Shown: positions 9,289 through 56,439 of the stretch, piece by piece
Layout: the number at the start of each line of letters is the position of its first letter
Position numbering within the stretch: the stretch's first letter is position 1
Assembly: GCA_021234155.1 (NCBI GenBank)
Contig: JAJEKV010000206.1
Span: 620,001 to 684,000 of the forward strand
DNA: 64,000 nucleotides
Direction of reading: 5' to 3'
DNA from: Isoetes taiwanensis
Lineage: Eukaryota > Streptophyta > Lycopodiopsida > Isoetales > Isoetaceae
The notes under the pieces: model-generated
The model's database searches: none
Seen by the model: only the letters and a program-made list of their open reading frames with translations
Told to the model about the DNA's origin: nothing
Position numbers and translations under genes: made by a program

Positions 9289-9303
9289 TTCTCCCCCCCT
9301 TAG
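9289..9303 (-). other. Polypurine tract of element B
   Basis: Read on the minus strand it is AAGGGGGGGAGAA immediately before the LTR start TGTGACG. This fixes the orientation of the element. Confidence 0.85.
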
Positions 9304-10160
9304 GACAATGTTGTCCTCAGCATTGCGCTAAGGTGACTAACCTACCTTATGCCTGCAAAACAACATAACATACTCTTTAATTCAATTTAAACGGTCAACT
9401 TCCTATTAAAAGTTAAGTGTCAAAATTTAGGCTATATTTGTACTTATACAAAATTATACAACCTTAACAAGTTACTTCTTATAATAATTAGGAAATATTA
9501 CTATAAGAGTTATTAGGGTTCATAATCTAAATTATGGCTCCCCTATCCTCCTCGTGAATCGCCCCTCCCTCGATGCCCACCTCTAACTTGCCACGCACAA
9601 GGAGCACATTACATTAGTTTAATTAATAAATTTGTGGTTTTGGGGACCACCCCCTTACCTACCTCCTTGAGCCGAACTACTAGCTCAAGGTTACCCTACT
9701 ACCTTGCACTCGATCATGGCCCCATAAGGATTTGAGCTTAAGGACCATTTAAGATGATCCTATCATCGCCCATGATCAAGTGCTACCTTGTACACGATCC
9801 CCCCCAGATTGAGTACACCCCAGTGCATCATGCCCCAAGGGTTTTAAGCTAGGGAACGCCTCTCCGATCCCATCATCACAAGATGATCACTTTCACCTTC
9901 ACCATGACCCTCCTACGGCCGGTGTAAGGCCCCCAGATCGCGGCATAGAGAGCATCCGATCGATGTCTCATCATCGCCCACCATGCCTCATTCCTCACTC
10001 ACATGACCCTAATGGTCATGCGCACCTCTTGGTGCGTGTTGGCCTAGAGAATGCCTTAAAGGCGTATCCCATCATCGCCCACACGTTCCAAGATTCTGGC
10101 ACATGCACTCTACTAACTAGAATACATGAGCCAGAACTTAAGGCTAACTAAGAAACATAC
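9304..10160 (-). other. 3' untranslated part of element B
   Basis: The stretch between the integrase end and the polypurine tract has no convincing frame. It shares ATGATC/GATCAT-rich wording with the equivalent stretch of element A (57010-57740), so it is element sequence and not host DNA. Confidence 0.55.
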
Positions 10161-10164
10161 TAAG

Positions 10165-11351
10165 CTAACCTCCTGGCAAGTCGACGTCGATTAGTTCGGA
10201 GACAACTCGCCCATCAAACTCCTTCGTAAACTCTGGGTATTGCTTCTCCAAATCTTGCTTCAATACCCATGTTGCGTCTTCCACGGGTAAGTGCTTCCAC
10301 TTAACCAAATATTGGAGGAACTGAGACCTCCTAGTCCTCTTGAATGACTTATTAAAAAGTAATTCAGGCACTATTTCTACTTGCTCCTCCGTCATTTCCA
10401 ACAAAGTTGGGGTATCCAAAACCGCCTCAGGGTTAGGATCGTGCCTTTTCAATAAACTCACATGGAAGACCTTAAGGTGGCCAAGAGAGCCCACTCTTCT
10501 CCAAGATCGTGAATGGACCGGCCCACCCAGGGGCGAGCTTCTTACAATTGCCGATGCGAAGCTTCCCTTGCTTAACCTTTACTTGAGCCAACTTTATCTG
10601 CCACAACAAAACAACTCCCAAGGAGTTTTACCTCTATCCGCTTGACTCTTCAGATATGCCCATGCTGTTGAAGATACTCCCACACTTCTACCAAAAGCTA
10701 CCGCATATATGCTGTCGTTGTTGAGAAACTTCCACCTTGGGCACTAAATTATGCCACATAACTAGGGTCAAGCATTGATAACTGTAACTGATCATGGGGG
10801 AGACATCTTCGATAACTCTTGCTTCATATTATTGTACGTAATTGACCAGGTGGATGTACTCGGCCCATTTGGATTACTTGTTCCAATCATAGTTTCTCAA
10901 CGTGCTCTCTAAATTTGTGTTGGTGCGGTCCCTTTGCCGATTTGACTGCAAATGATGAGCAAAACTCATCAACAAGTTGGTGCAGCTCGCGTTGAAGAAG
11001 TCTTGCTAAACGTCGCTAAAGAACTTCGGATCTCTTTTGGTGATGATCGACCTGTGCCTTCTATGCAGCCTAAAAGAACTCTTATTTAGACCACACGGCT
11101 AGGTCCAAGGCGGTGTCTATGGTGTGGCATGGCAAGAATGTGCCCTTTGATAAACTATATACCACAACCATCAAGGCTTCAAAGCTTCTTGTTGTCCTTG
11201 GAAGGCCCGCTATGAAAACCATGCTGAAAACTTGCCACTTGGCGTCTGGCACCGCCCAAGGTTCCAAAACTCCTGGAATTCGAAGTTGTTCCGCCCTTGT
11301 TTGCTGGCTCCACTGACATTCTTGGGTATGTCTGATTATCTGCTTCTTCAT
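10165..11351 (-). pseudogene. Element B integrase with C-terminal chromodomain
   Basis: The end of the frame (10165-10494) contains HLKVFHVSLLKRHDPNP and the chromodomain FLQYLVKWKHLPVEDATWVL. Chromodomains at integrase ends are the hallmark of chromoviruses and in studied cases recognise methylated histone H3. Upstream pieces near 11082-11351 match the integrase core of element A (TRAEQLRIPGVLEPWAVPDAK). Broken, with many breaks. Confidence 0.85.
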
Positions 11352-11564
11352 ACCTGGCCAGACGTAGCTACTTCTAATCTTGAAGTAGGCCTTTATAAAT
11401 TTTGCATGGCCGGAAATAGGGCTTATTATGCGTGTCCTGGAAATTTTTTTTCTTACTCCTTATGCTTTGAGTATAATTGTTCTTTGATATTAAAGATTAC
11501 CTTCCTTTTTTTAAAATATTTGAAGGTTTCTCTTTCTTAATCCGTTCTTGCATTCTTGTAAGGA

Positions 11565-12064
11565 CTAGCCCATCATGTGCTTGAACTCCATGTTGGGGAA
11601 GATGGCTTCTTCTATCTTCTTGCCGAATTCGCTGTCAAGTGGAGATGGCATTGCAAATTGCTGCTTCAAAAGCTTGCCAATGAGTGGCGACGCCTTAACA
11701 TCTCCACGGCTGCATGCTCTTCCATTGATTTGTTTGTAGGTCACGATGCCGTCGAAGAGAATTGATGAAGAAATCATCCAAGGAATCTTCAAGATGTCGC
11801 CCCTCAAATGCATACAAGTTGGTGGAGCATTCCATAGACTCAAGGGCATCACCGCGGAAGTGATAGTGCCCATACCAAGTTCTGAAGGAGTCTTATAATT
11901 ATCTTCCCCTTCATCCTTATTTGTCGATTGCCCGAGCTTAAGTCCATTTTGTAGAAGAATCCCGCTTTTTGGGGCTGATCCATTATGTCGTTGCTTGTTG
12001 AGCTGCCGGGGTTGATATACATCTTTAGACTTCCATCCGGCGAAAAAGGATCGAAGTTGATCAA
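11565..12064 (-). pseudogene. Element B reverse transcriptase / RNase H remnants
   Basis: Pieces such as YKMDLSSGNRQIRM and VMPLSLWNAPPTCMHL match the RT of element A ([28 protein letters not shown]). The region is short compared with element A and heavily decayed. Confidence 0.75.
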
Positions 12065-12187
12065 CTCCTACAACCGCTTCTTGAGCTCGCTAGCTCGGAA
12101 GTGCTGATTCTATAAAGAGCTTTGCTGATCGGCTCGCCCAAAGGTAAGAGTGATTTCAAACTCTATGCCTCTATAGAGCAAAAGCTC

Positions 12188-12370
12188 TCAAATTTCACCT
12201 GGAGATATATCATGGGACTTCTTGATTAACTTAGAAATTGGCCGAGGCAACTGTTTCGAAGTAGCATCTTCCTTCTTACTCTTGTAGTCGGGGTCGACAA
12301 CTTGTAGCTTGTGTACGACCTCATTCCTCATGATGTACTTAAGTAATTGCTTTACTGACATGCGTTGCAC
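12188..12370 (-). pseudogene. Element B protease C-terminal remnant
   Basis: The piece LPRPISKLIKKSHDISPGEI matches LPKPIAKIIREFYDVFPDDI, the linker between protease and RT in element A. The DTG active-site part is not recognised. Confidence 0.6.
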
Positions 12371-13484
12371 GATTGGAATTACTTCCTTAACTTAATTATA
12401 AGGTACTTGCTCTTTGGTGCTGGGATAAGTATCTCTTGCTTATGATAATAAATTATTGCCTTAGCCAGCTTTAATATTGCATGCTTATTATGAGGTCATA
12501 GTTGCCAATGTACATAAGTTGGTGCCGATGCTCTACTTTGCTTCGCTTAAGGTTGATGTCGAACTTGACTCTTGTTCCGTTGGTGCTGCTAATTACTTGG
12601 CCCTGGCTTAATTACTGGCCTAGATTTAGACTTAAGAGTCTTGCTCTTAAAGATGTCTGTCATCTAGGAGGTGCAAAATTACAAGTTAAAGAACTACTTA
12701 CATAAATCCTATGGCCACAAGTTAGTCGGCATGACATTACTTTTGGGCACACATAGAAAACTATATGGTTAGATAATTATTCTTGTTTTAGATCTAATCT
12801 ATACTCTAGGATCTACCCTTTCTTATTTATTGCCCTCTTGAAATAGCCCCACCTTTGCGTTGATGCCATCTAAGAAGTTGGCCGGACTTATTAGATTGCT
12901 TCCCTTCATTTGGTCGGATTATTCCTTATGCTGCGGAAGTACTCGTCATATACATGGTCGACGATTATCCTATTATTGAATTCTTCTTAGCGAGGTGATC
13001 AAGCTCACGAAGAGGTTCCAATATATTGGATATCTGCCAGCAATGTATACAATTATTGTACTCCATACATTTTCTTCCCAATACTTGAAGCTTTGCTCCA
13101 TTCTTGGGTCCATCTTTCTAAAGGAAAAGACAAAAAAAATCTACCCGAAATTTCGTCCCCATCCCATCATGGATGTTATCACCCATAATTCTAAGAAACT
13201 CAACTATCTGATAGGTCCTCTAGCTTGCTCAAAGCTGGTGTAGTCATTAGTCGTTGGAGTAGCAAGGCGATGATCCATAATTTGTTGAAAAATATCTGGT
13301 ATCCTTGGAGTTGTTGCATGATCATTCAAGTGCCCTGCTTTCTTTTAATGCACATATTCTGACTCTGCTCGTCCTTAATGTTGATGCTGACTACCTTTAT
13401 TAACATTATCCCTCTTAGTGGACTTGCTGATGTAGATAACATAACGCTCGGTGTCGCATCCCAAAAGCTTGAAGATAATGTTCT
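12371..13484 (-). other. Element B interior where gag is expected; no gag recognised
   Basis: This position corresponds to purine tract plus gag in element A. I find neither a CCHC zinc knuckle nor the purine-rich strand bias here. Confidence 0.5.
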
Positions 13485-13740
13485 TCACATTCTAAAATCT
13501 TTCATGTCGCTCATCTGCCTTGGAGGTATGTCCAGTCTCATCCTTAGGGCTCTTGATATCCTAAGTCGATGAAGTCGTCTACTTGTTGGTGGCGTAGTTA
13601 TGACATTAGTCATCGATGTCGGCCCTTCCTCGAGACAATATGGCACTTGGAGAGTATCCTTGACTAGGAGATGTTCCTCCCCTAATGTGATCAATTTTGT
13701 AAGTGCCACGATGCCCATTGGTTGTTGCATAGCCCTCTTG
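13485..13740 (-). pseudogene. Element B remnant of the second accessory frame
   Basis: The stretch PMGIVALTKLITLGEEHLLV...LQVPYCLEEG matches PIGITALSPIIVEGEEYLLA...LHLPYYLEQG in the accessory frame of element A (28720-30250). Presence in two diverged elements argues that this frame is a regular part of the lineage. Function unknown; broken here. Confidence 0.7.
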
Positions 13741-14638
13741 GGAATTCTTATGTCTAATCTTGATGTCGCAATCGTTCTTCCTATAGGCTCTCCTTTATTT
13801 TTCGTGTTCGGGCTTCCCTGTACACCTTCTTGGCCTTTGATTTGCTGAAGCTTCCTCCATAAGTTTGCCCTCTGCTTTCAATTCGTTGATGTTATCAAGT
13901 GGCTCCACCGTCGAGGCTCGAGGATCTGCAACGAAGGTTCTCCTGACCTGTTTTATTGCCCTAAGCACAAGGTAACTAATACTACCACAAGAACAATTAT
14001 TTATATCTACTAACTCTACAAACCCTATTTTTATGCCTTTATCCACTCTACCTCAAATGACCCACTTGGCATTTGGCACTCTACTAGGCACTGAGAAAGC
14101 TACTTATTTACTGTTATGGGGTGGTAGAAGGAGACTCATTCACTGGGTGTACCTGGTGTGCTAGATTGAATTACTTAGATAGAATTAATTCCTAGACAAT
14201 TATCTATGATACAAGGCATGGCTGAAGACACTTGATGATAGTGCACCTATGACATGTGTTGGTGTATCATACCAACGTGTGACAACAATTTCTAAGGCCT
14301 TGGCAACTAGCTGGGTTTCTAAGAAAAGGTTTAATTATACTACCTATATGTAGACAAGAAGACACTTAGCAAGATAAGAGCGACAACTAAGCTGTGATGA
14401 GTGCAGATGCCGTCTCTATCTAGCTTAAGGTTCTTGGTTCTAAATCTAAGGCTTGGCCATTACTATTATCTATCATTATTAAAGCTTAAATCTAATTAAG
14501 AATCCTAATTTAAACACAAACGATGCCCGCCCTCATGACTAATTGGGCAATTCTTATCTAACTAGCAACTTTTTCCATGCTAAAAAGATATCTAAGAATA
14601 CAAATATGGGCAAATCGAGTCAGAGCGCGCAGATGAGG

Positions 14639-14657
14639 CCTGCGTCGCAAACGCAGG
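14639..14657 (-). other. Hairpin in the leader region of element B
   Basis: CCTGCGT and ACGCAGG pair around a five-base loop. The flanking words (CAACTCGGGTC then GACCGC on the sense strand) match the flank of the hairpins of element A near 28160, but the stem sequence differs. Confidence 0.5.
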
Positions 14658-15056
14658 ATCGTTTTGTGCGGTCAGACCCGAGTTGACCGTTTCTTACTGT
14701 TTTTAGATATTTTTAACAAATTTAAAGTGCTACACTGCATTTTTAGACAATTTCTAAGCATTCTAACATCTTTTTGTACGAAATTTGGATCAATTTTGCC
14801 CTAATTTAAGTGACTTGGATGGGTTCGCCGATTTCGAGGCAATTTTTTTTTATTTCTATGTCAGAATTTTATGCTACTTAGCCAATTAAGAGCATTCTAA
14901 GTAAGATGCAAAGGATTCTACTACAAGTAATTTATACAAGAACATTTTTTATATCTTACAAGCAATTAATTTTTAGTAAATTTACTTCTAATGAGTAAAA
15001 ACAATGTACAGGAAAACTTATATTTATATAATTTGCTAGACTGGGGCTCTTCACGG

Positions 15057-15290
15057 CTTCTCCTTGCGAATTCTTTTTCGCCAGTGGAAGTCTTTGGGCC
15101 TGCTTGGTATATCGCGCAGAAGTTTGCCTTCTTCAAAAGTTGTACCCCCGCCCGCCTCCGCTCCTCCGTCAAGGCTCGGACCATTAAGGGTGCAGATCTT
15201 GGCCTCCTTCGGCTTTGGGCGATTCCTGGCGAGACCCCGCCGTCGTTGATGTGGCTCGGTAGTCGCAGCCCATCTTGAACTCCTGGATAG
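15057..15290 (-). pseudogene. Element B histone H3-like remnant
   Basis: On the minus strand APLMVRALTEE and, in another frame, KDFHWRKRIRKEK correspond to [11 protein letters not shown] and [13 protein letters not shown] in the H3-like frame of element A. The DNA aligns over about 230 bp, including CAGGAGTTCAAGATGG against CAGGAGTTTAAGACGG. It is a decayed fossil with several breaks. It shows that the H3-like segment predates the split of elements A and B. Confidence 0.7.
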
Positions 15291-15589
15291 ACCTTTGATG
15301 TAGGCACTCGAAAAAAGAGTTTCTGGATCATCAGGCTGGTACGCCGTTGGCAATGCCGAATATGCTGAGCAGCTCTACTGTCCTGGGGATTTGGCCCATG
15401 GCAGACCTTCTTCAGAGAATCGAGTCGAGGTGGTGGAGGCTGGCTTTTCGACCCTGGTCGGCTACCTTGTCAGATCCATTGGCGGAGATAAATCTTGCAT
15501 GCTGCCTTCTTCTTCTCGTACTCCATATCTTGCTTCAGCTTTAAGTAGCTTCTCGCTGATGTTGCCCTCCTTTGGACTGCATTGGATAT

Positions 15590-15990
15590 GGTTGCCGAGT
15601 GTAGACCGCGTCTGTTCTTCGGCCTCCTCCTCCTCCTCTTATTCTTTAGCCTCTTGCTCCCTTCTCTTGTTGGTGTGGTCTTTCCTCCTCGAGCTCATCC
15701 TCCTCTAGTTCGTCCGGCTGTGGTTCTCTGATAACCACACTCTCCCTACGCCTAGCTTTACGCCTCCTCGTTCGCTTCTCCCTTGCCTACTTCTCTTCCT
15801 TCCTTTTCTTCCGCATTGATTGCTCGCTCCCCTTTCTGCTGTTCCTGCCGCTGGAGTTGCTCGTATTGCCGAGATTGCTCCTACTGCTTGCTGCTCACCT
15901 ACACTTCCTGGTGTTGGGGTTGCTCCTGTTGTCGAGGTTGCTCTTGTTATTTGCTCCTCATCTCCAGAAGCAGCTCCACGATCTCACTTT
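15590..15990 (-). pseudogene. Element B acidic region upstream of the H3-like remnant
   Basis: Sense-strand GAG/GAA-rich sequence (seen as CCTCCTCC and GCTCCT runs on the plus strand) sits where element A has its glutamate-rich segment. Plus-strand serine-rich frames here are antisense shadows. Confidence 0.5.
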
Positions 15991-16762
15991 CCCCTGAACT
16001 TTGCGATCATCCACCTGAAGTGCTAAGTCATTGCTCCTCCACGAGTGAAACGATTCGTCTGAAGAGCTTGAATGGCTAAGTTCTTCATCTGGCCTAGGTA
16101 CCAACAGCTTAGCTTCCTTGATGGTGGCCTCTTCGAGCGATCTTGCCTCTATCAATGGTCGACTATGTCTATTCGCGGCTCCTTTGAGTCGATCTCGTCG
16201 GCTGTTCGTTCGGTGGACACTTTTATGGCAGCTTCGGAATGGCAGCTTCGGAGATTAGCTTATAATTCGCCTCGCAAGGGTAAAGGGAAGGTTCAAGCTA
16301 CTCTTTGGGAACTTCTAAGCAGTAGAGGTGCTTCTATAGGTTTAATAGCTACTTTTTCTTAAGAGTAAATTTTATTATAACTATGGGTTATTAATTAAGG
16401 TACTTCCCCCTAATCACTTAAACTATTTCCCAAAATTTCCTAATTCTTTTTGGGCCAAGTAGTGGTCATTTCACGCCATTTTCTTTCAAGCTTTATTTTG
16501 AGCGATTTCTCATTCAATTTTTCACTTGAAAGGTGCGGTTCATGAACAACTTGAGCTCAAATTTACTAGAAGGTTTCTTTGACTATCTTATTTCTACCAC
16601 TTAGACTATACCTAATCTAATTACGACCCTACTAATGGGAAAAATTTTCTCCCACATTTCGCGGTTCAAGACTGGAATTCTCATTCCATTCATTAGCTAG
16701 GCCAGTTAGTCTACATATTCAGGGATATGGTCAGTGCTAGCTCTTGGTCAACCAAGAACATT

Positions 16763-16774
16763 GCTCTGATACCA
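16763..16774 (-). other. Primer-binding site of element B (initiator tRNA-Met type)
   Basis: On the minus strand TGGTATCAGAGC starts one base after the LTR end. This 12-mer matches the 3' end of plant initiator tRNA-Met and is the common primer site of plant LTR elements. Confidence 0.93.
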
Positions 16775-16775
16775 T

Positions 16776-18349
16776 TGTGACGCTCCCTGCTAAATATACG
16801 GCGCCCAACCGTACACTCCGCAGGAAATCCCCCATCCGGTCCTTCGACCGCACGGGCCCTCCGTCTATCCCGCACTCTGGGATCACCGTAGTGCGGGAAG
16901 GGGACACGAAGGTGTCTTGCGCGCCCTTCCCCTATGGGCTCCTATCACAGCGGAAGCATAAACAACGTCAGAACTAGCAATAACAGTAGATCATACTACC
17001 TCGAAGGGTAGCTCATCCACATATCCATAGGTGCAAAGAACATAATCATATGCCATAAAACATGAGAGCTCCTACCCATGGCTCCGACTCATAAGGAGGA
17101 TGACTGACCGGCTAGGCCTCAAGATAGAGCAGACCGAGTCATGGCAATGGCGAGGGCTGGCATAGAACAATGGCTAGGGTTGACCACTCCATCCCCCCCC
17201 CCGTGGCATACTTTGCGGATGGGCTAAATCAGGCTCGGCATGACTCTAGCCTTGGGACACGCAATCCCATGGCATCACCCATCAGACTACTCCAGGTTGC
17301 ATCTCCCGGGTCCGATGAGGCGGGGAAGGGTTGCATCTCCCCTTCCTGTGGTCTAGAGGTTCCGTATGGCTAGAGAATCGTCACACACACGCATTTCGCA
17401 CGGACTTAACCCCCAAAACGAGAGCCAAGCCAACACTTGCGGCTCTCTCGAGGGGCGGCGACACCATTGCCCCGGGAGGTGTCGGACCCATGCTCGCCCC
17501 CACCTAAGTGACCGACCATAAGCCTAGCCCGCTATGGGATCCCCCCGAAGCCCCCACTCGCGGGGATCCTCCCTCCACATTCCCTCTAGCCCCCGTTATG
17601 TGGTGCTGAGTCACATCATAGCTACTACATATGGCTCTAGGTCTCTACCCCCCTTCCCCATACAAGAGGAGCAAACATGATCAACCAACATCACATAATC
17701 ATCATATCCTAAGAATGATCATAAGAAGAACATCTTAACCTAATCATACAATCTAACTAATGGTTAGGGTTCATTGATTAGGGTTCAAGATGTTGAATAC
17801 GTGTTCTAGAATGGCTCTACTCTAGATACAAGATACTAGCACATATGGAATGCTAATTCCAGATGAGCTATCACAACTACTACCTTACATACCTGCTCCT
17901 GATGCTCTCCCTCCAGATCCGTGTGCCTCCATGGTCTTCGACTCACGTGATGCTGCTCCTGCTCCAAGAACGAGTCTACCCTACGGGGGCTGCTGCACCA
18001 GTCTATGCCACAGCAGACGATGTTCGAAACGGGGTTTCGAACGAGTAGATGAGTCTCTGGGTGCTAGGGCTGGAAAGAGGCCTAGGGTTAGGGTTCCAGC
18101 CTATATAAGTTAGGTCCACCTAAGATGCCACGTGGCACCAATCGGGTGAGTCTCGTGTGGCGGTTGCCCAATAGGTTAAGGCCACGTGGAAAATGGTCTT
18201 AACCTAAGATTGGCTAAGTTATATGAATAACTTAGTCATGCCCCCCTAGTGCCACAATCTATGGTATACAAGGCTATGAAGATAGACTTGTATAGTGACG
18301 GGTCCAGGAATATACGTATTCATAGCGTATATTCCCCTGGAACGTCACA
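16776..18349 (-). repeat. Element B 5' LTR
   Basis: Partner of 7643-9288, 1574 bp, same ends. A TATA-like motif lies at 18102-18110 on the minus strand. The first ~250 bp differ from the partner by only about two bases, but 17180-17640 shows clustered substitutions and a missing block of roughly 70 bp. Confidence 0.92.
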
Positions 18350-26584: not shown

Positions 26585-26920
26585 ATGATAATGTAACTTG
26601 ATCAACCTTAGGAAAGGTTAATTCCACGTGGCACTACCTGATTGGAGTAGTTAGCCATGTGTTCGCATCCCATTGGACAAGGTGTCAACCCTAACCATAA
26701 CTTTGCCTATAAATACCTAACCCTAACCCAGAAGACACTTTTGCTCCTCCCACTCTTGAGGCTATTGTCACGCCCGAAGTTTAGAATCAAGATCCGTTTG
26801 CGGCATAGCACGGTCTATCGGCATAAGAAAGCGGCGTGGGCGTGTTAGATTGATTGCGGTAATCTTGAACCCTCAAGAATCGATGGAGACCCCGGGATCG
26901 GGGAGGCAATGCGCCGAGCA
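26585..26920 (+). repeat. Element A 5' LTR, right piece
   Basis: Matches 57861-58190 with few differences, then homology to the 3' LTR is lost near GGCAATGCG. The final part of this LTR and the primer-binding site are not recognised. Confidence 0.85.
26708..26715 (+). promoter_or_regulatory. TATA box and telo-box of the element A 5' LTR
   Basis: TATAAATA is followed within a few bases by CCTAACCCTAACCC, a plant telo-box arrangement. The same pair is at 57984 in the 3' LTR and, with altered wording, in element B. Confidence 0.65.
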
Positions 26921-26936: not shown

Positions 26937-28037
26937 ATGGCCGTAACCAAATCCATCGCCAGAGTTTCAGGCCCATACGCAAAGACAAATTCACGAGTGA
27001 AGGGCCTAGCAAAGCAGCCGCCACCCACCCCTCATGAAGAAGAAGTAGTTGAAGAAGAAGGGGAAGAAACAATTGAGGAATAAGAGGAGGAATCAAGTGA
27101 AGAACGGGAGGTTGACGAAGAACGGGCCGAAGAAGAAGCAGCCACTAGACCCACAACAGGTGGGAAACAGCTGCCGAAAAGTATGAGACCCGACCCCCAG
27201 GAGCGACAAGTGCCACCAAGAAAGAAAGGCAAGGAAAAAGTATCCGAATGGGCCTCCGAAAGGAGGGAGAGAAAGAGAAAGGAGAGAGAGGAGGAGGCCA
27301 GAAGGCAAGAAAGGAGGACGAAGAGGAGGCAGGATAGGCCTAGGGGGACAATTACCATTGAAGAACCCCCTAGGGATGAAGAACCAACGGAAAAACAAGA
27401 GGAGGAGGCCGAGGAAGAGGAGGAGGAAGAATCCGTGGTCGAAAAATCAGGAGATGAGGCCGAACCCTCCGACCCCAATGCCCCTCCACCATACCCAACA
27501 TGGCCCAAGGCACAGAAGAGCAAAAAGAAGCAAAAGCCGGGCGAAAGGGCGTTCAAATTGAGTCACGACGCCCAATTTGAGAGAAAGAAGGTGGCGTATA
27601 AAATATATTTTCGCCACTGGTACCTTTACCACGAATGGTATTGCAAGCAGAACTTCCCAAGGACGGTAAAGGGGGGCAGACCCAAGAAAAATCAGCCGAA
27701 ACCGCCCCCACCATACCCCAGAGAGCCGAAGAGGAAACACCATGGACCCAACTCGAAGCACTCCCGTGCGTTTAGGGAGATTAGGCACTTCCAACAGTGC
27801 ACAAATCTCCTTATACGTAAGGCACCCTTCGAGCGGCTGCTCAGAGAAGTGTTACAGGAGTTTAAGACGGACTATCGAGTCACGCCTTTGATGGTTCGTG
27901 CTCTGCAAGAAGCTTCGGAGGCGGAACTGGTCCAATTATTTGAAGAAGGTAACCTCTGTGCTATTCATGCCAAGAGGGTTACCGTAATGCCTAAAGATAT
28001 TCACTTGGCAAGAAGAATTAGAGGGGCAAAGTTCTAG
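26937..28037 (+). CDS. Histone H3-like accessory frame of chromovirus A (copy 1)
   Basis: The main open frame is 27183-28037 (284 codons from ATG). Residues 1-55 are basic and acidic mixed; 56-95 glutamate-rich; 96-190 proline- and lysine-rich with [14 protein letters not shown]; 194-284 a histone H3 fold. The fold reads [52 protein letters not shown] and [17 protein letters not shown], ending ARRIRGAKF. Canonical H3 has [20 protein letters not shown] and [17 protein letters not shown] at the same spacing. Loop 1 has the length of canonical H3, not the longer loop of CENH3. A short stretch from an ATG at 26937 begins [15 protein letters not shown], resembling the H3 tail ARTKQTARKSTGGKA. It lies between LTR and gag, where plant LTR elements may carry extra frames. 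Role unknown; nuclear chromatin contact is inferred. The region has about one break. Confidence 0.88.
27762..28034 (+). other. Histone H3 fold domain (alpha-N to alpha-C), copy 1
   Basis: Ninety-one residues align without gaps to canonical H3 from about residue 48 to the end. The buried cysteine and the CAIHAKRVT strand are kept, and the C-terminal ARRIRG is identical. Differences cluster at surface positions, such as AEAEL for the canonical EAYL region. Confidence 0.92.
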
Positions 28038-28168
28038 GTAGTTACATAATTGTCTAAAAATTTTGTAATTTTGGATTCCAAAGCTATAGAAAGATGTTTT
28101 ATTACGTGTTAAAATTAAAATTTTATGAAAATTGGAAAAGTCAACGGTGGCAAAAGTCCACTCGGGTC

Positions 28169-28221
28169 ACACCGCGCCAAACGGCCTTCCGAGGGGCTCG
28201 GAAACCCCTTTCGCACGGTGT
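28169..28221 (+). other. Leader hairpin 1 of element A
   Basis: Outer arms ACACCG / CGGTGT and inner arms TTCCGAG (28187-28193) / CTCGGAA (28197-28203) form a nested stem with a 3-base loop. It lies just after the H3-like frame. Confidence 0.7.
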
Positions 28222-28414: not shown

Positions 28415-28719
28415 AACCGGAGTCGCCCGATTTCATCTAAAACGTGTTCAAATTTGTGCAAACAAAAAGATTTAGCATGTTTTCCACCTTGTTCTAACTA
28501 CCTTAGCATTTCTTATCTCTTAGATTGGTCAAACATAGCTCATAAAAGTTAGAAATTTCTAAATACTTATGATTGGCACGAAAACCTAGGAACCCAAATC
28601 GCTATAAAAGGAAGGTCATTTTCTATTTTTCCTTCTTGGAGATAGCTCCTATCCCTTTAGGCGATCTTTCAGGCCTTTTGCAATTTTATAAAACCGTCTT
28701 TTACACCTACCTTGCATTA

Positions 28720-30250
28720 ATGGCGCCTACAAACTTCATCGAATGGTATAACAGCTCCGAGCACAAGGGAGAAGTACCCGTTCAGCAGGCCTTTGAGGTG
28801 TTTGATCATACTTTTGATCTATACGCAACACTAACAAGAACACCATTCTATACAGAGATAATGGCCCAGTAAGATCAACAGATATTGCCATGGGAAGTTA
28901 ACATTCCACCCAGATCAGGAAACTGGGTTCCACTGGAAGCACTCTCCCGAGTATTAGGCAATACCTCAAAAATCAAGAAACAGATATGGGAAAGAGCAAG
29001 CAACATGCCGGATTATATGAGTTGCACAGTACAAAGGCATAGGCACGTCTCAGCTCAAGCAGCACTTGCAATTTTTATGCAATTTAACGCCATCAATCAG
29101 GTAGGGGAACCTTCAGTTCAGCCCCTAGACCTTGCACCCTTGAACACAAGGGTTAATCAAGATGATATCATCGAACTCCACCGAGTACGTGACCCAGGGC
29201 ACATCACATGGAATACTCAAGCTACAGGAAGATTATGAAGAAACTGGTGAGCTAGATGAAGAAGAAGAAGCAAGATTCGCTGAAAGATGGGAAAGGCAAG
29301 TCACTATGCACGAAGAACGGGTGATAACAGCAAACCCGCAACCAATAGGCATCACTGCCTTATCTCCAATAATTGTCGAAGGAGAAGAATACCTCCTTGC
29401 AAATGACATATTGCACCTACCTTACTACTTGGAACAAGGCCTAAGTATTGATGAACTCCTAGGCATCATCTCTGAAGGACAGCAGCATGACCTCATCGAC
29501 TATTCTTATCAGGAGATTCCTCGTGAAGTAGCAGAGCACCATTCTTATACGGGTAAAACAATGTCCGATATTGAAGCCTACCAATACATAAGGGAATTCT
29601 ATAAGCAAAATGAATCCATTATATCGGAAGAAGAATTCCAAGCAATTCAAAGTACCTTGTATAAACCAGGCAGAGAACCTAGCGCGAGTAATCCCAAGAG
29701 ATCATCAAGTATCAGGGAGAGCACCAGCATCAATCTTGAAAATGCGACGACAATGATGAGAGACCATGATGATCTCCTAGCACTTGACATAGTGGGATCT
29801 GCAGCAGCAAGAAAAGGAACAGGCAAAGGAAAAGCACCAATGGGGCATCAAAAAGGCAAGGCCTTGAGATACTATCTCCCAACCCTGTGTCAAGGCCAAA
29901 TGTTAGTCTTTCACAAAGAATTTAGCCAAAGAGGGGAAGAAGCAGTGGCATTGCTCATGGCACTCACAGGTTTCGGGCAACATGCCAAAATACGAGAAAA
30001 TATCGATCACGTTATTCTTATTAAAAGATCGGTAGCTCTCTATAGTTTGGATTTTGCCCGAGGCCATATGCGAGATGGACCACTTACAGTTGTAGCAGAT
30101 ACGGCACCGGAACTCCCGGCACCACAAATGCAGCAAGCCTTAGAAGGAGGGTCGGCACGAAATATCCTGCGAAATACGGGCAAAGGCCTCAGACTCAAAC
30201 ATATTAGGGATTTCTTCAAATCCAAGACGGGATCCAGCTCCAAGAAATAA
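28720..30250 (+). CDS. Second accessory frame of chromovirus A (unknown function), copy 1
   Basis: Open stretches begin at an ATG at 28720 (MAPTNFIEWYNSSEHKGEV) and continue to 30250. The last and longest (29162-30250) encodes an acidic segment (EETGELDEEEEARF), a middle conserved in element B (PIGITALSPIIVEGEEYLLA), a lysine-rich low-complexity part near GKGKAPMGHQKGKAL and a basic end (RLKHIRDFFKSKTGSSSKK). No CCHC, protease or RT motif is present, and I do not recognise the fold. A pyrimidine-rich CTTTCAG before 28671 could be a splice acceptor. Position between H3-like frame and gag is kept in both units of the duplication and in element B. The region has about two breaks. Confidence 0.6.
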
Positions 30251-32103: not shown

Positions 32104-32490
32104 ATGGAGTATGTTTGGGTTATTCATGTTCTCTTCTCTCATTACTATAGTATATCATTTACAAGGTTCAAATTTTATGCCCAAGAAATTTGGCAATCGC
32201 TCCTAGTAATATTATAATTTTATGTACCCATGTGTTTTGAATAGAAAAAATTATCTTATGATCATATAAATCATTTTCTATTTTATAATCTTTTATGGTT
32301 TATTTGAAGCAAGATAACAATATCATAACACCAATCTAATATTGCATAAACAATGTATTTTGATAAAATCTTGCAAAGAGGAATATTCGGGCTTGCCACC
32401 TCAGAACAAGAATTTCAAGGCTAAACAACGAAACCGGGTTGCCAAGAAACTTTATTCGGCCATGACAATGATGAAGAAGTCGAGGATGAC

Positions 32491-33702
32491 ATGTCACCCG
32501 AAGCTATAAACCGACGATTAATGCGCATGAGAAATCAAATGACATGTATAGTCAACTGGGCAACACCACTGATGCAAAACCAGGAGTGTGCACCTCTACC
32601 ACCACAAGTTCCAGGAGTTGATCAACAAGTTCACCAAGGGCAGAATCCACCACCGGAAGTTCCAAAAGAGAAAAAGAGAAAGAAAAGACATAGGAGAAGT
32701 GTAACTCCTTCAAGCTCAAGTGCAGACAACACCAAATCAGGTACAGCTAGTAACAGTAACTCCGACACTGAATCTGATAGTTCCAATGATAGGAACAGAC
32801 ATCGAAGAGGAGGAACAATATGTCGAGCGGAAGATTACCAGAAGAAAATAGATATTGCTATGAGCAATGTCTGGAAAACAAGGAAACTGGGGCAGTTCTC
32901 TGGAAAGGACAGATCCGGCATGGAAGCAGAAGCATGGCTTGATGAGATGGAAGAATTTGGCAACTCCTATGGGATGAAGGATAAGGACATAGGAAAGGTA
33001 GCAACAACAAATTTGAATGGTCCAGCCAGAATATGGTGGAAGGGATATGCCAAATCTAATAAACTGAAAAGAAATAATTGTAAGTTCAAAACTTTCAGTA
33101 AAGCATTTCGCAAGCACTATGTACCTCGATCGCATACAAGCAGGCAGATTCAACAATTTTATAGGTTGGATCAAGGAAACTTAACCGTAGCCAAATATAC
33201 AGAAGAGTTCATGAGGCTACGATTAAATGTGCCAACAATAACAGAAAGGCAAGCCGTAGATGGATACATTGAGGGACTAAACCCCAACATCAAGAGACTT
33301 GTGCGGGCCATAAACCCAAAAACAGTTGGGGAAGCTGAAGATAAAGCCTTAAGTTTGGAAGAAACTCTACAAACACCTGGGCCAAAGCAGAGCAACTATT
33401 CAAAGAACAAGTCAATAGCTCCATATACTCCAAGGCAGCAGGGAAATCAACCTGCTACCCAGCAGTTTCAAGGGAAGAATGACAGGAAGGGACCATACAG
33501 AAACCAGTCAGCTCAAGGATCTTCATCTGGCAGGTCAATCAAAAGCTTCCTAGACAGCATTCCAAAGGAAAAGAGGGATGAATGCATCAAGAAACAACTC
33601 TGTTTCAAATGTTTCCAACCGAGCCACAGAACACATACATGTCCTTTTGTCATGCAGGCAGCTTTGGCAGAGCTAGATGGATGGGAATCACCTACTGAAT
33701 AA
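32491..33702 (+). CDS. gag: Element A gag, copy 1
   Basis: The protein has a basic, serine-rich N-terminal part, a retrotransposon gag domain (WLDEMEEFGNSYGMKDKD, ARIWWKGYAK, FRKHYVPRSHTSRQIQQF) and one CCHC zinc knuckle, CFKCFQPSHRTHTC (C-x2-C-x4-H-x4-C). Gag forms the cytoplasmic particle that packages element RNA. It differs from copy 2 by about five residues in 403. Element state as given for element A. Confidence 0.92.
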   Translation: MSPEAINRRLMRMRNQMTCIVNWATPLMQNQECAPLPPQVPGVDQQVHQGQNPPPEVPKEKKRKKRHRRSVTPSSSSADNTKSGTASNSNSDTESDSSNDRNRHRRGGTICRAEDYQKKIDIAMSNVWKTRKLGQFSGKDRSGMEAEAWLDEMEEFGNSYGMKDKDIGKVATTNLNGPARIWWKGYAKSNKLKRNNCKFKTFSKAFRKHYVPRSHTSRQIQQFYRLDQGNLTVAKYTEEFMRLRLNVPTITERQAVDGYIEGLNPNIKRLVRAINPKTVGEAEDKALSLEETLQTPGPKQSNYSKNKSIAPYTPRQQGNQPATQQFQGKNDRKGPYRNQSAQGSSSGRSIKSFLDSIPKEKRDECIKKQLCFKCFQPSHRTHTCPFVMQAALAELDGWESPTE

Positions 33703-33739
33703 GATGAAGATGATGATCAGGAGGAAGCTCAAGATTACA

Positions 33740-34370
33740 TAGATGGTGAGTGTAAGATTTGTCAGCTATTGAGACTGATAATGTTGCAAGTCAGTCCACA
33801 GTCATCTCAGCTGATGCTATAATAGATGATAAACCGTATGTAATCCTAATAGACACAGGTAGTTCACACAATTTTGCATCTCCTAAACTGGCAGCATTAT
33901 TAAAGTCAAAGACCCTGAAAACTAAACCCAGACCAGTCAGCATGGCAAATGGGGCAATTCGACATACAAAGGGAAGAAGAGGTAACTTTGACGTCGGATT
34001 GACCGGAATTAAGTTCACCATGGGAGCTGAGGTAATGGATATTGGTAAATATGACTTGATAGTTGGAATGGAATTCCTCAAACCAGCTAAGGCAATCATT
34101 GACTGCGACAATAAAGAAATAGCAATCACCGCACCAGACGGCAAACGAATAGTGGTCAGAGGTAAGGAAATTCCTTCAGTAATGCAGTGTATAACTTTCA
34201 GCCAGTTGAATAAATACAATTTAAAGAAGGAGATTGAATATATCCTTAGGCTAGAAGCAATACAACCTGATAGTAAGAATAAAAAGCAGGGGGAAAGCAT
34301 AGATAAATTGCCTAAGCCTATTGCTAAAATCATAAGAGAATTTTATGATGTTTTTCCGGACGACATTTGA
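33740..34370 (+). CDS. Element A aspartic protease, copy 1
   Basis: The DTGSS active-site motif lies in VILIDTGSSHNFASPKL, followed by the second lobe motif YDLIVGMEFL. The enzyme would cut the gag-pol product. After it, this unit runs directly into the start of the duplicated 5' segment. Confidence 0.88.
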
Positions 34371-34681
34371 GAACTACCACCCTATAGAGGTGTGGAACGT
34401 GAACTCTAGCACCAGATGCTCAGCCTACCAGCAAGGCTCCCTACAGGATGAGCACACCGAAACTTGGAGAGCTCAAGAAACAGTTGAAGGAGTTGTTAGA
34501 AATTAGTTTTATAAGACCAAGTGTATCACCTCATGAAGAAGAAGTAGTTGAAGAAGAAGGGGAAGAAACAATTGAGGAATAAGAGGAGGAATCAAGTGAA
34601 GAACGGGAGGTTGACGAAGAACGGGCCGAAGAAGAAGCAGCCACTAGACCCACAACAGGTGGGAAACAGCTGCCGAAAAGT

Positions 34682-35539
34682 ATGAGACCCGACCCCCAGG
34701 AGCGACAAGTGCCACCAAGAAAGAAAGGCAAGGAAAAAGTATCCGAATGGGCCTCCGAAAGGAGGGAGAGAAAGAGAAAGGAGAGAGAGGAGGAGGCCAG
34801 AAGGCAAGAAAGGAGGACGAAGAGGAGGCAGGATAGGCCTAGGGGGACAATTACCATTGAAGAACCCCCTAGGGATGAAGAACCAACGGAAGAACAAGAG
34901 GAGGAGGCCGAGGAAGAGGAGGAGGAAGAATCCGTGGTCGAAAAATCAGGAGATGAGGCCGAACCCTCCGACCCCAATGCCCCTCCACCATACCCAACAT
35001 GGCCCAAGGCACAGAAGAGCAAAAAGAAGCAAAAGCCGGGCGAAAGGGCGTTCAAATTGAGTCACGACGCCCAATTTGAGAGAAAGAAGGTGGCGTATAA
35101 AATATATTTTCGCCACTGGTACCTTTACCACTTAATGGTATTGCAAAGCGTAACTTCCCAAGGACGGTAAAGGGGGCGACCCAAGAAAAAATCAATTAAA
35201 ACCGCCCCCACCATACCCCAGAGAGCCGAAGAGGAAACACCATGGACCCAACTCGAAGCACTCCCGTGCGTTTAGGGAGATTAGGCACTTCCAACAGTGC
35301 ACAAATCTCCTTATATGCATAAAGGCACCCTTCCAGCGGCCGCCGAGAAGTGTTACAGGAGTTTAAGGCGGACTATCGAAGTCCACGCCTTTGATGGTTC
35401 GTGGCTCGCAAGAAGCTCGGAGGCGGAACTGGTCCAATTATTTGAAGAAGGTAACCTCTGTGCTATTCATGCCAAGAGGGTTACCGTAATGCCTAAAGAT
35501 ATTCACTTGGCAAGAAGAATTAGAGGGGCAAAGTTCTAG
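34682..35539 (+). pseudogene. Histone H3-like accessory frame, copy 2
   Basis: The acidic first half (34682-35110) is nearly identical to copy 1. The H3-fold part (about 35250-35539) is recognisable by [17 protein letters not shown] and ARRIRGAKF, but lies in a patch of clustered differences and is broken (a few breaks). Confidence 0.85.
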
Positions 35540-39556: not shown

Positions 39557-39843
39557 ACAATGGAGTATGTTTGGGTTATTCATGTTCTCTTCTCTCATTA
39601 CTATAGTATATCATTTACAGGTTCTCAGCTTATGCCCAGCAACGCTGGGCACTGTTCCTAGTAATATTATAATTTTATGTACCCATGTGTTTTGAATAGA
39701 AAAATTATCTTATGATCATATAAATCATTTTCTATTTTATAATCTTTTATGGTTTATTTGAAGCAAGATAACAATATCATAACACCAACGAATATTGCAT
39801 AAACAATGTATTTTGATAAAATCTTGCAGCAGGAACATTCGGC

Positions 39844-41151
39844 TTGCCACCTCAGGAACAAGAATTTCAAGGCCGACAACGAAACTGGTTGCCAAGAAAC
39901 TTATTCGGCCATGACAATGATGAAGAAGTCGAGGATGACATGTCACCCGAAGCTATAAACCGACGATTAATGCGCATGAGAAATCAAATGACATGTATAG
40001 TCAACTGGGCAACACCACTGATGCAAAACCAGGAGTGTGCACCTCTACCACCACAAGTTCCAGGAGTTGATCAACAAGTTCACCAAGGGCAGAATCCACC
40101 ACCGGAAGTTCCAAAAGAGAAAAAGAGAAAGAAAAGACATAGGAGAAGTGTAACTCCTTCAAGCTCAAGTGCAGACAACACCAAATCAGGTACAGCTAGT
40201 AACAGTAACTCCGACACTGAATCTGATAGTTCCAATGATAGGAACAGACATCGAAGAGGAGGAACAGTATGTCGAGCGGAAGATTACCAGAAGAAAATAG
40301 ATATTGCTGTGAGCAATGTCTGGAAAACAAGGAAACTGGGGCAGTTCTCTGGAAAGGACAGATCCGGCATGGAAGCAGAAGCATGGCTTGATGAGATGGA
40401 AGAATTTGGCAACTCCTATGGGATGAAGGATAAGGACATAGGAAAGGTAGCAACAACAAATTTGAATGGTCCAGCCAGAATATGGTGGAAGGGATATGCC
40501 AAATCTAATAAACTGAAAAGAAACAATTGTAAGTTCAAAACTTTCAGTAAAGCATTTCGCAAGCACTATGTACCTCGATCGCATACAAGCAGGCAGATTC
40601 AACAATTTTATAGGTTGGATCAAGGAAACTTAACCGTAGCCAAATATACAGAAGAGTTCATGAGGCTACGATTAAATGTGCCAACAATAACAGAAAGGCA
40701 AGCCGTAGATGGATACATTGAGGGACTAAACCCCAACATCAAGAGACTTGTGCGGGCCATAAACCCAAAAACAGTTGGGGAAGCTGAAGATAAAGCCTTA
40801 AGTTTGGAAGAAACTCTACAAACACCTGGGCCAAAGCAGAGCAACTATTCAAAGGACAAGTCAATAGCTCCATATACTCCAAGGCAGCAGGGAAATCAAC
40901 CTGCTAACCAGCAGTTTCAAGGGAAGAATGACAGGAAGGGACCATACAGAAACCAGTCAGCTCAAGGATCTTCATCTGGCAGGTCAATCAAAAGCTTCCT
41001 AGACAGCATTCCAAAGGAAAAGAGGGATGAATGCATCAAGAAACAACTCTGTTTCAGATGTTTCCAGCCGAGCCACAGAACACATACATGTCCTTTTGTC
41101 ATGCAGGCAGCTTTGGCAGAGCTAGATGGATGGGAATCACCTACTGAATAA
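39844..41151 (+). CDS. gag: Element A gag, copy 2
   Basis: Same protein as copy 1 with a longer open N-terminus (PPQEQEFQGRQRNWLPRNLF). The gag domain and the CCHC knuckle (CFRCFQPSHRTHTC) are present. This unit is followed by protease and RT, so it is the gag in normal position. Confidence 0.92.
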   Translation: MPPQEQEFQGRQRNWLPRNLFGHDNDEEVEDDMSPEAINRRLMRMRNQMTCIVNWATPLMQNQECAPLPPQVPGVDQQVHQGQNPPPEVPKEKKRKKRHRRSVTPSSSSADNTKSGTASNSNSDTESDSSNDRNRHRRGGTVCRAEDYQKKIDIAVSNVWKTRKLGQFSGKDRSGMEAEAWLDEMEEFGNSYGMKDKDIGKVATTNLNGPARIWWKGYAKSNKLKRNNCKFKTFSKAFRKHYVPRSHTSRQIQQFYRLDQGNLTVAKYTEEFMRLRLNVPTITERQAVDGYIEGLNPNIKRLVRAINPKTVGEAEDKALSLEETLQTPGPKQSNYSKDKSIAPYTPRQQGNQPANQQFQGKNDRKGPYRNQSAQGSSSGRSIKSFLDSIPKEKRDECIKKQLCFRCFQPSHRTHTCPFVMQAALAELDGWESPTE

Positions 41152-41207
41152 GATGAAGATGATGATCAGGAGGAAGCTCAAGATTACATAGATGGTGAGT
41201 GTAAGAT

Positions 41208-41820
41208 TTGTGCAGCTATTGAGACTGATAATGTTGCAAGTCAGTCCACAGTCATCTCAGCTGATGCTATAATAGATGATAAACCGTATGTAATCCTAAT
41301 AGACACAGGTAGTTCACACAATTTTGCATCTCCTAAACTGGCAGCATTATTAAAGTCAAAGACCCTGAAAACTAAACCCAGACCAGTCAGCATGGCAAAT
41401 GGGGCAATTCGACATACAAAGGGAAGAAGAGGTAACTTTGACGTCGGATTGACCGGAATTAAGTTCACCATGGGAGCTGAGGTAATGGATATTGGTAAAT
41501 ATGACTTGATAGTTGGAATGGAATTCCTCAAACCAGCTAAGGCAATCATTGACTGCGACAATAAAGAAATAGCAATCACCGCACCAGACGGCAAACGAAT
41601 AGTGGTCAGAGATAAGGAAATTCCTTCAGTAATGCAGTGTATAACTTTCAGCCAGTTGAATAAATACAATTTAAAGAAGGAGATTGAATATATCCTTAGG
41701 CTAGAAGCAATTCAACCTGATAGTAAGAATAAAAAGCAGGGGGAAAGCATAGATAAATTGCCTAAGCCTATTGCTAAAATCATAAGAGAATTTTATGATG
41801 TTTTTCCGGACGACATTTGA
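41208..41820 (+). CDS. Element A aspartic protease, copy 2
   Basis: Contains VILIDTGSSHNFASPKL and YDLIVGMEFL as in copy 1. It is placed normally between gag and RT. Confidence 0.88.
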
Positions 41821-41897
41821 GAACTACCACCCTATAGAGGTGTGGAACGTGAACTCTAGCACCAGATGCTAAGCCTACCAGCAAGGCTCCCTACAGG

Positions 41898-42470
41898 ATG
41901 AGCACACCGGAACTTGGAGAGCTCAAGAAACAGTTGAAGGAGTTGTTAGAAATTAGTTTTATAAGACCAAGTGTATCACCCTTTGGGGCACCTATTCTCT
42001 TCGTGAAGAAGAAAGATGGAAGTCTAAGAATGTGTATAGATTACCGACAACTCAATAAACAAACGATAAAGAATAAATACGCATTACCAAGGGCAGATGA
42101 TCTAATGGATCAACTTCAAGGGGCAAAGATATTCTCCAAAATTGACTTAAGGTCAGGATACCACCAAATAAGAATAAAAGAAGAAGATGTTCATAAAACA
42201 GCTTTCAGAACACGCTATGGTCATTATGAATTTACAGTTATGCCCTTTGGCCTATCAAATGCACCAGCAACGTTCATGAGGTTGATGAATGATATTTTCA
42301 GAGAGTTTTTGGATGATTTTGTAATAGTGTTCTTCGACGACATCCTCATTTATAGTAAGTCATCGAAGAACATGAACACCATCTAAGAAAAGCCTTACAG
42401 AAACTAAGAAGGCATAAGCTATTTGCCAAATTTTCCAAGTGTCACTTTGCCACCCCCAAAGTTGATTACT
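41898..42470 (+). pseudogene. Element A reverse transcriptase
   Basis: RT motifs are visible in order: [53 protein letters not shown] and the catalytic [13 protein letters not shown]. It would copy element RNA into DNA. Broken. Confidence 0.93.
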
Positions 42471-43222
42471 TGGGGCATATTGTATCAACAGAAGGAATTG
42501 CAATAGATCCAGCAAAGATAGAAGCCATCATTGATTGGCCAGCACCAAGAAACGTTCCTGAAGTAAGAAGTTTCCTGGGTCTTGCAGGATACTATATAAA
42601 ATTTGTAAAGGACTTTGCTAAGTGGGCAGCTCCTTTGACAGACCTCACAAAGCAACAGAAGGTAAAGAACTGGATGGACAATTGGATGCAAGGAGTACAA
42701 GTTTCTTTTGATAAGCTCAAAGAAGTCTTGACAACAGCTCCAGTTCTAACCTTACCTGACCCCGAAAAAGATAAACTTGTAGCAACCGATGCAAGCATGA
42801 TTGCCACAGGCGGGGTACTTATGCAGGAAGGAAGGGTAGTTGCATATGATTCAAAGAAAATGAATGAAGCAGAACAACGATATCCGACTCATGATCAAGA
42901 ACTATTGGCAGTAGTGAGGGCACTACGCATTTGGAGACATTACTTGTTAGGAAAGAAGTTTCAATTAGACACAAACCATCAGAGTTTGCAATACATATTC
43001 ACACAACCACTTCTAAATTTGAGACAAAGAAGGTGGATGGAGTTTTTAGAAGAATACGACTTTGATATAGTCTGTAAGCCCGGCAAATTGAATGTAGTTG
43101 CTGATGCTCTCTCTCGCAGGCCAATAGTCACAAGAACACACTGCAATGCCATATCAACTTTATCAAGTGAATTCGGCAGGAAAATTGAGGAGGCAATACC
43201 CTCTAGTATGGAGTTCCAATAG
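42470..43222 (+). CDS. Element A RT connection and RNase H
   Basis: [14 protein letters not shown] and [16 protein letters not shown] mark the RT tail. RNase H follows with [14 protein letters not shown], the [18 protein letters not shown] helix and [10 protein letters not shown], then [12 protein letters not shown]. RNase H removes the RNA strand during reverse transcription. Confidence 0.93.
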
Positions 43223-43321
43223 GTTTGGGCAAGTCTTTGCAAGGATGCAAGAACAAACAAAGAAAGGGAACTTTTTAAGAATTATAAGAAGGAAGGCAAG
43301 CTTCTTTACCATAAGGACAAG

Positions 43322-44129
43322 TTGTGTGTCCCAGAAGCATCAGAAGTGAGAAAATTGATTCTCAATGATACTCATAATAGCCCGATTGCAGGTCATGCAG
43401 GCTTTATGAAAACTTACTTCAAAATAAGAAGTGGTTACTTCTGGCCAGGTATGAAGAAGGACATCGCCAACTACATTCGGCAATGTCAATTATGTCAGCA
43501 AACCAAGGCTGAACAACTTCGCATTCCTGGAGCCCTAGAGCCATTAGCAGTTCCAGATGCCAAGTGGGAAATAGTAAGCATGGATTTCATCAAAGGCTTT
43601 CCAAGAACAACAAGGGGGCATGACGCACTTATGGTAGTGGTCGATAAACTTTCAAAGATGGCACATTTCTTGCCATGCAGAACAATAGACACTAGCCTGG
43701 ATACAGCCTTGCTCTTCACTAAAGAAATTTTCAAACTTCATGGCATGCCTAGAGGAATAATATCGGATAGAGATCCGAAATTTATAAGTGCATTCGGAAC
43801 CATCGGAACAAAGCTTGGTATGAGTACAGCTTATCATCCTCAAACAGATGGTCAAACAGAAAGAACAAACAGAATTTTGGAAGATATGTTGAGACATTAC
43901 GTGTGGAACAAACAGACGAAATGGGAGGACTACATATACTTGGTATAATTTGCATACAATAGTACCAAGCAAGAATCATCACAGATGTCCCCGTTTATGA
44001 TTAATTATGGATACCAATGTCTCACACCTGACATGTGGCATAATCCTGTGTCAAAAGTTGAAGTCTCTCAACAAATGTTAGAAGATACGCAACAACTAGT
44101 GCAAGAAGTTCGGGAATATTTGATAGTAG
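43322..44129 (+). pseudogene. Element A integrase, N-terminal and catalytic part
   Basis: An HHCC zinc finger (HNSPIAGHAGF...CQLCQQTK) is followed by the D-D-E core, seen in VSMDFIKGFPRT, ISDRDPKF and TDGQTERTNRILED. The region is interrupted at 44130 by the insertion of DNA transposon C; the chromodomain end lies beyond it. Confidence 0.93.
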
Positions 44130-47214: not shown

Positions 47215-47229
47215 GACCTAGGCAAATTG

Positions 47230-56404: not shown

Positions 56405-56435
56405 GACATAATCCCAATTTAATTGGATGATGGTT
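56405..56435 (-). repeat. Element C right terminal inverted repeat
   Basis: GACATAATCCCAATTTAATT followed by GGATGATGGTT; inverted partner of 44130-44160. Confidence 0.9.
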
Positions 56436-56439
56436 GTAG

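Follow-up and report, generated by a model that had tools for sequence, protein, structure and literature searches.

A family of Ty3/gypsy chromoviruses in Isoetes taiwanensis encodes a histone H3 fusion protein upstream of gag

The genome of Isoetes taiwanensis contains a large and old family of Ty3/gypsy chromoviruses that carry a histone H3 as part of their first gene, ORF1, which is located between the 5' LTR and gag. We have characterized this arrangement in a stretch of 64,000 nucleotides from contig JAJEKV010000206.1, referred to as the window, and followed it through the entire assembly (1,658,258,908 bases in 1110 sequences), where the position of the H3 gene, its architecture, its copy number and the selection acting on it are directly apparent. 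A preliminary description of the window had claimed a Ty3/gypsy chromovirus with an H3-like protein between its 5' LTR and gag, a view that is upheld by the recurrence of this protein upstream of gag throughout the family.

The H3-encoding gene of the window comprises the following features:

26937..28037, plus strand: ORF1, encoding the H3-fusion protein, with an ATG at 26937 and a stop codon at 28035-28037
26937..26966, plus strand: degenerate H3-tail start, defined by translation and by comparison with sister copies and the next subfamily
27768..28034, plus strand: histone H3 core of 89 residues extending without gaps from alpha-N to the C-terminus, defined by comparison with Pfam, PDB and host H3

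The gapless alignment of the end of ORF1 to H3, noted earlier from the letters of the window, was borne out over about 88-89 residues. Its similarity to H3 is far above chance, as reflected in a significant match to the histone-fold profile PF00125 (1e-30, 106.9 bits at a cut-off of 26.4) and in the match of the core to solved H3 chains in the PDB, which covers 88 residues with 0 gaps (1.4e-34). The core shares 69 % identity with that of the H3 genes of the host. An assignment as CENH3, whose loop 1 is longer than that of H3, was rejected because the alignment of the 89-residue core with host H3 contains no gap. In translation, the window copy of ORF1 is interrupted by one in-frame TAA at codon 49 (27081-27083), and the remaining stop-to-stop frame (27084-28037) encodes 317 residues; stop-free frames of related ORF1 copies span 337-405 residues.

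The longer copies of ORF1 share a common layout, in which a tail-like N-terminus is followed by a long insertion and by an H3 fold of canonical length, with a stop codon placed directly after the H3 C-terminus. The protein thus departs from H3, where a short conserved tail directly precedes the fold. This combination of start, insertion and fold implies either that an insertion split an H3 between its tail and its fold or that the tail was retained and the remainder replaced. In the subfamily of the window and its sister subfamily, tail and core are separated by a charged insertion of 200-250 residues. Their proteins start with MARTKQT-RK (seven rows), MARTKRTYRK (one) or MARTKS-ARV (five), the degenerate start being common to five sister copies of the window and MARTKQT-RK being found in seven of eight rows of the next subfamily, and MARTK is invariant in all 13 rows that reach the start codon, among 16 examined. 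At the position of K9, the subfamily of the window carries a valine (5/5 rows). The PHRYRPGT segment is lost from both subfamilies, and their cores are 63-69 % identical to host H3, compared to 82-88 % in the other four subfamilies. In the latter, a domain of about 200 residues (59 % mean column identity) is followed by a linker, and a stretch reading KPHRYRPGTVALREIR or near it precedes the H3 core. M1 and K5, which corresponds to K4 of H3, are kept in all 17 rows of these other subfamilies and the full MARTK in two, whereas proteins of the large A group start with MPRFK or MSRFK and retain only K4 of the H3 tail. The linkers of ORF1 include basic ones. Among the rows of the window's two subfamilies, the first nine residues of H3, ARTKQTARK, are perfect in L041 and L044. 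A further ORF1 subfamily (L082-L084) combines a perfect ARTKQTARK start with the insertion KIYERKMREHEAYMKKWEAYN.

The same arrangement was found at many places in the genome. The best 150 of 8705 loose candidates from a genome search with PF00125 were scored, of which the top eight (L001-L008) are canonical host H3 genes; in a search with the ORF1 protein of the window, the best 125 of 28102 loose candidates all have E-values of 1.8e-102 or lower. From the lower rows of the PF00125 search we extracted 30 loci, ten with 20 kb of surroundings and 20 as short pieces. An H3 core ends an element-type ORF1 in 29 of the 30, the one exception being L067, where the frame breaks inside the core. All ten long loci contain a gag homologous to that of the window on the 3' side of H3, which is followed by reverse transcriptase (RT), RNase H, integrase and chromodomain in this order in six; L027/L028 is devoid of RT and RNase H, and L009, L017 and L019 show truncation or rearrangement. 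Seven of the ten are enclosed by paired LTRs about 1.6 kb long, which are 90-97 % alike in their main match and have ends that read TGTGACGT..AGCGTCACA where resolved. The 5' LTR is followed by GTGGTATCAGAGC, which we take to be a match to the initiator tRNA-Met, in six of the seven loci with paired LTRs, and by a degenerate version in L021. Exact target-site duplications of 5 bp flank L011/L012, L023/L024 and an element on the minus strand of the window, and duplications with four of five matching bases are found at L015/L016 and L025/L026; the same search at L013, L021 and L027 resolved none. With paired TG..CA LTRs and target-site duplications, the order gag-PR-RT-RNaseH-IN and a chromodomain at the integrase C-terminus, the family is a Ty3/gypsy chromovirus by every structural test made, and the H3 belongs to the element.

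The plus-strand copy in the window is a damaged and partly duplicated representative of this family, whose remaining parts are:

26585..26913, plus strand: probable 5' LTR, a 330-bp direct repeat with 57861-58183 (91.2 %)
28573..30250, plus strand: accessory ORF2, broken, in three frames (blastp 9e-11 with L027:5724-6470)
32425..33702, plus strand: gag, first copy (Ty3_capsid 1.5e-17, Retrotrans_gag 2.4e-17)
33756..34370, plus strand: protease, first copy (RVP_2 5e-11)
34529..35539, plus strand: ORF1/H3, second copy, frameshifted (97.4 % over 1020 columns, 14 gap openings)
39820..41151, plus strand: gag, second copy (98.8 % to the first over 416 residues)
41152..41820, plus strand: protease, second copy (RVP_2 4.9e-11)
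41853..43222, plus strand: reverse transcriptase followed by the RNase H region, in two overlapping frames (RVT_1 8.6e-31 on 41853-42383)
43223..43948, plus strand: N-terminal and core part of the integrase (Integrase_H2C2 8.6e-22; rve 6.4e-4, below its cut-off)
56412..57008, plus strand: integrase C-terminus with chromodomain (SH3_Tf2-1 2.2e-21, Chromo 1.6e-10)
57861..58183, plus strand: probable 3' LTR, the direct repeat of 26585-26913

The direct repeats at 26585-26913 and 57861-58183 likely constitute an LTR pair; clean TG..CA ends and a target-site duplication were sought and not found at this pair. ORF1 and gag are 4.4 kb apart, and the intervening ORF2 is homologous to an ORF found at the equivalent position in other elements and shows no Pfam match above cut-off. 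The element has undergone a tandem duplication of 7.5 kb from ORF1 to the start of RT, in which 27030-34530 is repeated at 34529-41980 with 97-98 % identity. Only the second unit continues into RT and integrase, and the 3' piece of its ORF1 is still recognized by the Pfam Histone profile (1.1e-13). The junction of the duplication has CACC in common, which may reflect unequal exchange or an effect of the assembly. The frame at 42359-43219 is 79 % identical to the RNase H region of L011, which in that locus matches RT_RNaseH with 6e-33. An insertion of 12.5 kb (43949-56411) splits the integrase from its chromodomain, and five ORFs taken from it gave no Pfam match of known type at 0.01. Between ORF2 and gag, both units contain a purine-rich tract of 1.7 kb with runs of G and A (30400-32100 and 37890-39620) and internal repeats of about 476 bp. 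A short ORF outside of the element (20220-20681, plus strand) contains a DUF4283 domain (4.3e-13).

A second member of the family resides on the opposite strand of the window:

7643..18349, minus strand: second H3-bearing chromovirus with LTRs, target-site duplication, degraded H3, protease, integrase and chromodomain

Its LTR pieces of about 1.6 kb (16776-18349 and 7643-9288) are 94.2 and 95.8 % alike, ATGGTATCAGAGC follows the 5' LTR, and the exact 5-bp duplication CTATC is found on both sides. The decayed H3 is located at 15544-15107 (tblastn 9e-17) and the chromodomain at 10585-10171.

The abundance of the arrangement was estimated from gag and from short H3 motifs. A search with the gag of the window yielded 16894 candidates, of which the best 100 were considered and 98 used, leaving out two fragments of one place. 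At 21 or more of these 98 places an H3 is found upstream on the same strand, in 17 of them at a distance of 2.4-2.6 kb, and three H3 neighbours within 20 kb are otherwise placed, one of them reflecting the duplication in the window itself. Among 12 randomly drawn gag places without such a partner, a fixed 700-bp upstream window contained an H3 in eight. The core motif IHAKRVTxM[PT]K[DE] has 2347 exact matches in the genome and the tail start MARTKxTxRK 1598, host H3 genes included in both cases, with 0 matches for either pattern read backward. For the 67 tail matches located on contigs common to the listings of both motifs, a listed core motif is found at a distance of 336 bp, as in ordinary H3 genes, in two and at the element spacing of 0.9-1.7 kb in 12; the other 53 have no listed exact core motif within 5 kb. 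Five tail matches chosen for differing codon spellings all belong to ORF1 of an element and all have broken frames, with H3-core remnants recognizable in four, the fifth (L082) sharing the insertion of L083. Three tail-start matches that are identical over 30 bases are spaced 5.8 kb apart on the minus strand at G000:C217:120970-132589, and one of them has a core motif at element spacing; this region is possibly a tandem array of elements.

The H3 fold is the most constrained part of ORF1. In four groups of element copies, dN/dS values from Nei-Gojobori counts have medians of 0.029 (11 rows), 0.022 (4), 0.060 (9) and 0.041 (8) for the H3 core, compared to 0.106 and 0.106 for the N-terminal domain, 0.190 and 0.123 for the linkers and 0.117 and 0.197 for tail and insert, all of which lean toward conserved copies since the rows were picked by high score. 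Within groups, dS amounts to 0.36-0.89, and most pairs between groups are saturated at synonymous sites. A sample of eight H3 copies reached through gag, and thus free of this bias, contains four open, three broken and one partial copy, and dN/dS of the four open cores to their nearest relative is 0.05-0.08 in three and 0.42 in one. When host H3 is aligned with 38 distinct sequences from elements, 34 of the 89 core columns are invariant, including R49, R69, R72, R83, H113, K115, R116, T118, D123, L126 and R129, with invariant runs at A111-T118 (AIHAKRVT), K122 and D123 and L126-R131. We presume that these residues act as DNA contacts or form part of the H3-H3' bundle. The grouping of all element H3s in one clade is disfavoured (AU test, p 0.0147) in a tree that contains long branches, a result that may point to two captures of H3 rather than one.

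The chromodomain of the element is recognized by the Pfam Chromo profile in the window (1.6e-10) and in L011 (6.3e-8). By eye, it looks similar to the plant CHD_II type, which, according to the accessible part of a previous report, is devoid of the aromatic residue Y24 and usually also of Y48 of the cage (PMC3350952). The integrase-chromodomain part shows at most 52 % identity to any of the 120 database matches listed and could therefore not be assigned to a published lineage. Judged from these sequences, the CHD_II-like character of the chromodomain and the replacement of K9 by valine in the subfamily of the window would weaken the simple idea that the element reads its own H3 with its own chromodomain, an argument that is qualified by the retention of K9 in the sister subfamily (8/8 rows). 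A third conserved ORF (AEETLEEYEERIT...RRLFNLLI) is located between ORF2 and gag in near-canonical subfamilies (L009:6367-6744, L027:6842-7339 and L025:6111-6629); its copy in L027 has no Pfam match.

The recurrent position of H3 upstream of gag, its copy number, the selection on its fold and the invariance of core and tail residues speak for a role of ORF1 that works through the H3 fold. We consider it probable, with some reserve, that the H3 fusion encoded by ORF1 forms a pair with host H4 and thereby anchors element sequence in chromatin. In such a mechanism, the protein would be made from element RNA, it would pair with host H4 via the conserved H3 interface and it would enter chromatin either as an H3 variant or as a DNA-bound H3-H4 complex, by which the inserted domain and the H3-like tail would become fixed on element or target chromatin. 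The element might in this way gain from being held in a transcribable state or from a placement of its integration; the preliminary description had suggested more broadly that it could mark, recognize or package its own DNA or target sites. Rather tentatively, the products of ORF1 could be envisaged as retrotransposon-coded H3 variants residing in plant nucleosomes, whose own tail with K4, and in some cases K9, would together with the inserted domain establish a chromatin state of the element's own making. The proposed mechanism has to contend with the stop in the window copy, with three broken and one partial copy among the eight sampled through gag and with broken frames in all five copies obtained from the tail motif, as well as with the divergence of the subfamilies of the window to 63-69 % identity with host H3, their missing PHRYRPGT segment and the lost K9 in the window's own.

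Alternatively, the protein could remain unassembled and serve as mimic or decoy, with the tail baiting histone readers and writers of the host or the fold baiting chaperones, thereby blunting silencing. The protein truly begins with an H3 N-terminus, in which MARTK is invariant, and 68 of the 100 tail matches listed read exactly MARTKQTARK; host genes are among these matches, two of the 14 that could be paired with a core motif having the host spacing. These features would be in line with such a role, which we nevertheless judge unlikely in light of the stronger constraint on the fold (0.041-0.060) than on tail and insert (0.117-0.197) and of the reduction of the tail to K4 in the A group and the loss of K9 in the group of the window. 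Quite unlikely, in our view, is a function in packaging, where the protein, alone or with host H4, would coat element cDNA or the integration complex in the particle: ORF1 is the first gene and precedes gag, residues that in H3 contact DNA have been conserved and the linkers are basic, but no H4-, H2A- or H2B-like partner was found among the element ORFs scanned with Pfam and nothing links ORF1 to Gag. That the H3 would be a functionless passenger, a captured host copy amplified with the element as reported for fungal hAT elements, appears improbable. Transposon-borne H3 exists in fungi according to the accessible parts of two studies (PMC3538342, PMC6710886) and many Isoetes copies are broken; this reading fits badly because of the low dN/dS of the H3 core, which amounts to 0.02-0.06 over a dS of 0.36-0.89 with most between-group pairs synonymously saturated, and it is also at odds with the conserved N-terminus and with a stop codon that immediately follows the end of the H3 fold. 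Finally, the stop in the window copy and its location within a tandemly duplicated stretch of an assembly from long reads might have pointed to a local host H3 pseudogene, a chance similarity or an assembly artefact, an explanation that is almost certainly wrong and that we regard as refuted by the repeated occurrence of this arrangement across many contigs and by motif counts of 1598 and 2347 compared to 0 in the controls. A unique pseudogene at this locus, the case in which the preliminary description would have fallen, is likewise ruled out by the recurrence of the H3 segment upstream of gag across a large family under purifying selection.

We know of no chromovirus with a histone H3 fusion, and a literature search of open-licence PMC papers found no histone-bearing retrotransposon. 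The accessible parts of the genome papers of I. taiwanensis (main text, PMC8566536) and I. sinensis (PMC10541799) contain no occurrence of the word 'histone'. As far as these searches reach, the described family would be the first case of a core histone encoded by a retrotransposon. It shares with plant CHD_II chromoviruses the order gag-PR-RT-RNaseH-IN, the chromodomain at the end of the integrase, the LTRs and a primer site of the TGGTATCAGAGC type, and differs in that gag is preceded by two additional reading frames, the H3-fusion ORF1 and the accessory ORF2. Mobile elements that carry and multiply an H3 sequence have been described in fungi, namely H3L in Pyrenophora tritici-repentis, where the carrier is a hAT DNA transposon (PMC3538342), and H3-carrying hAT elements in Pseudocercospora and relatives (PMC6710886). 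As described there, these are DNA transposons with TIRs, whose copies are near-identical in one case and inactivated by RIP in the other, whereas the Isoetes element is an LTR retrotransposon with an H3 split by a large insertion, diverged subfamilies and strong purifying selection. An H3L transduplication of the fungal type was rejected, since LTRs, gag, RT and integrase are found instead of TIRs and a hAT transposase. A core histone encoded by a mobile or viral genome is also found in the bracovirus protein CpBV-H4, which is reported to join host nucleosomes and to exert an effect via its N-terminal tail (PMC5423620), although in this case it is an H4 rather than an H3 and the carrier is a wasp polydnavirus and no LTR element. 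Histones of non-cellular genomes are equally encoded by giant DNA viruses (Marseilleviridae, Medusavirus), whose histones are reported to self-assemble and, in Medusavirus, to comprise all four core types, whereas only H3 was found in the Isoetes element.

Accounts of how retrotransposons are silenced and how they integrate usually centre on the histones of the host and their marks. An H3 fold that is kept by an element through the diversification of its subfamilies raises the question whether a selfish element supplies part of its own chromatin, and it makes a direct test possible, namely whether the H3 of the element is found in nucleosomes, and where. The family also provides a naturally occurring set of H3 proteins in which a large insertion separates the tail from the fold. 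Collectively, the preservation of an intact H3 by selection suggests that a selfish element may be making part of the chromatin of its host.
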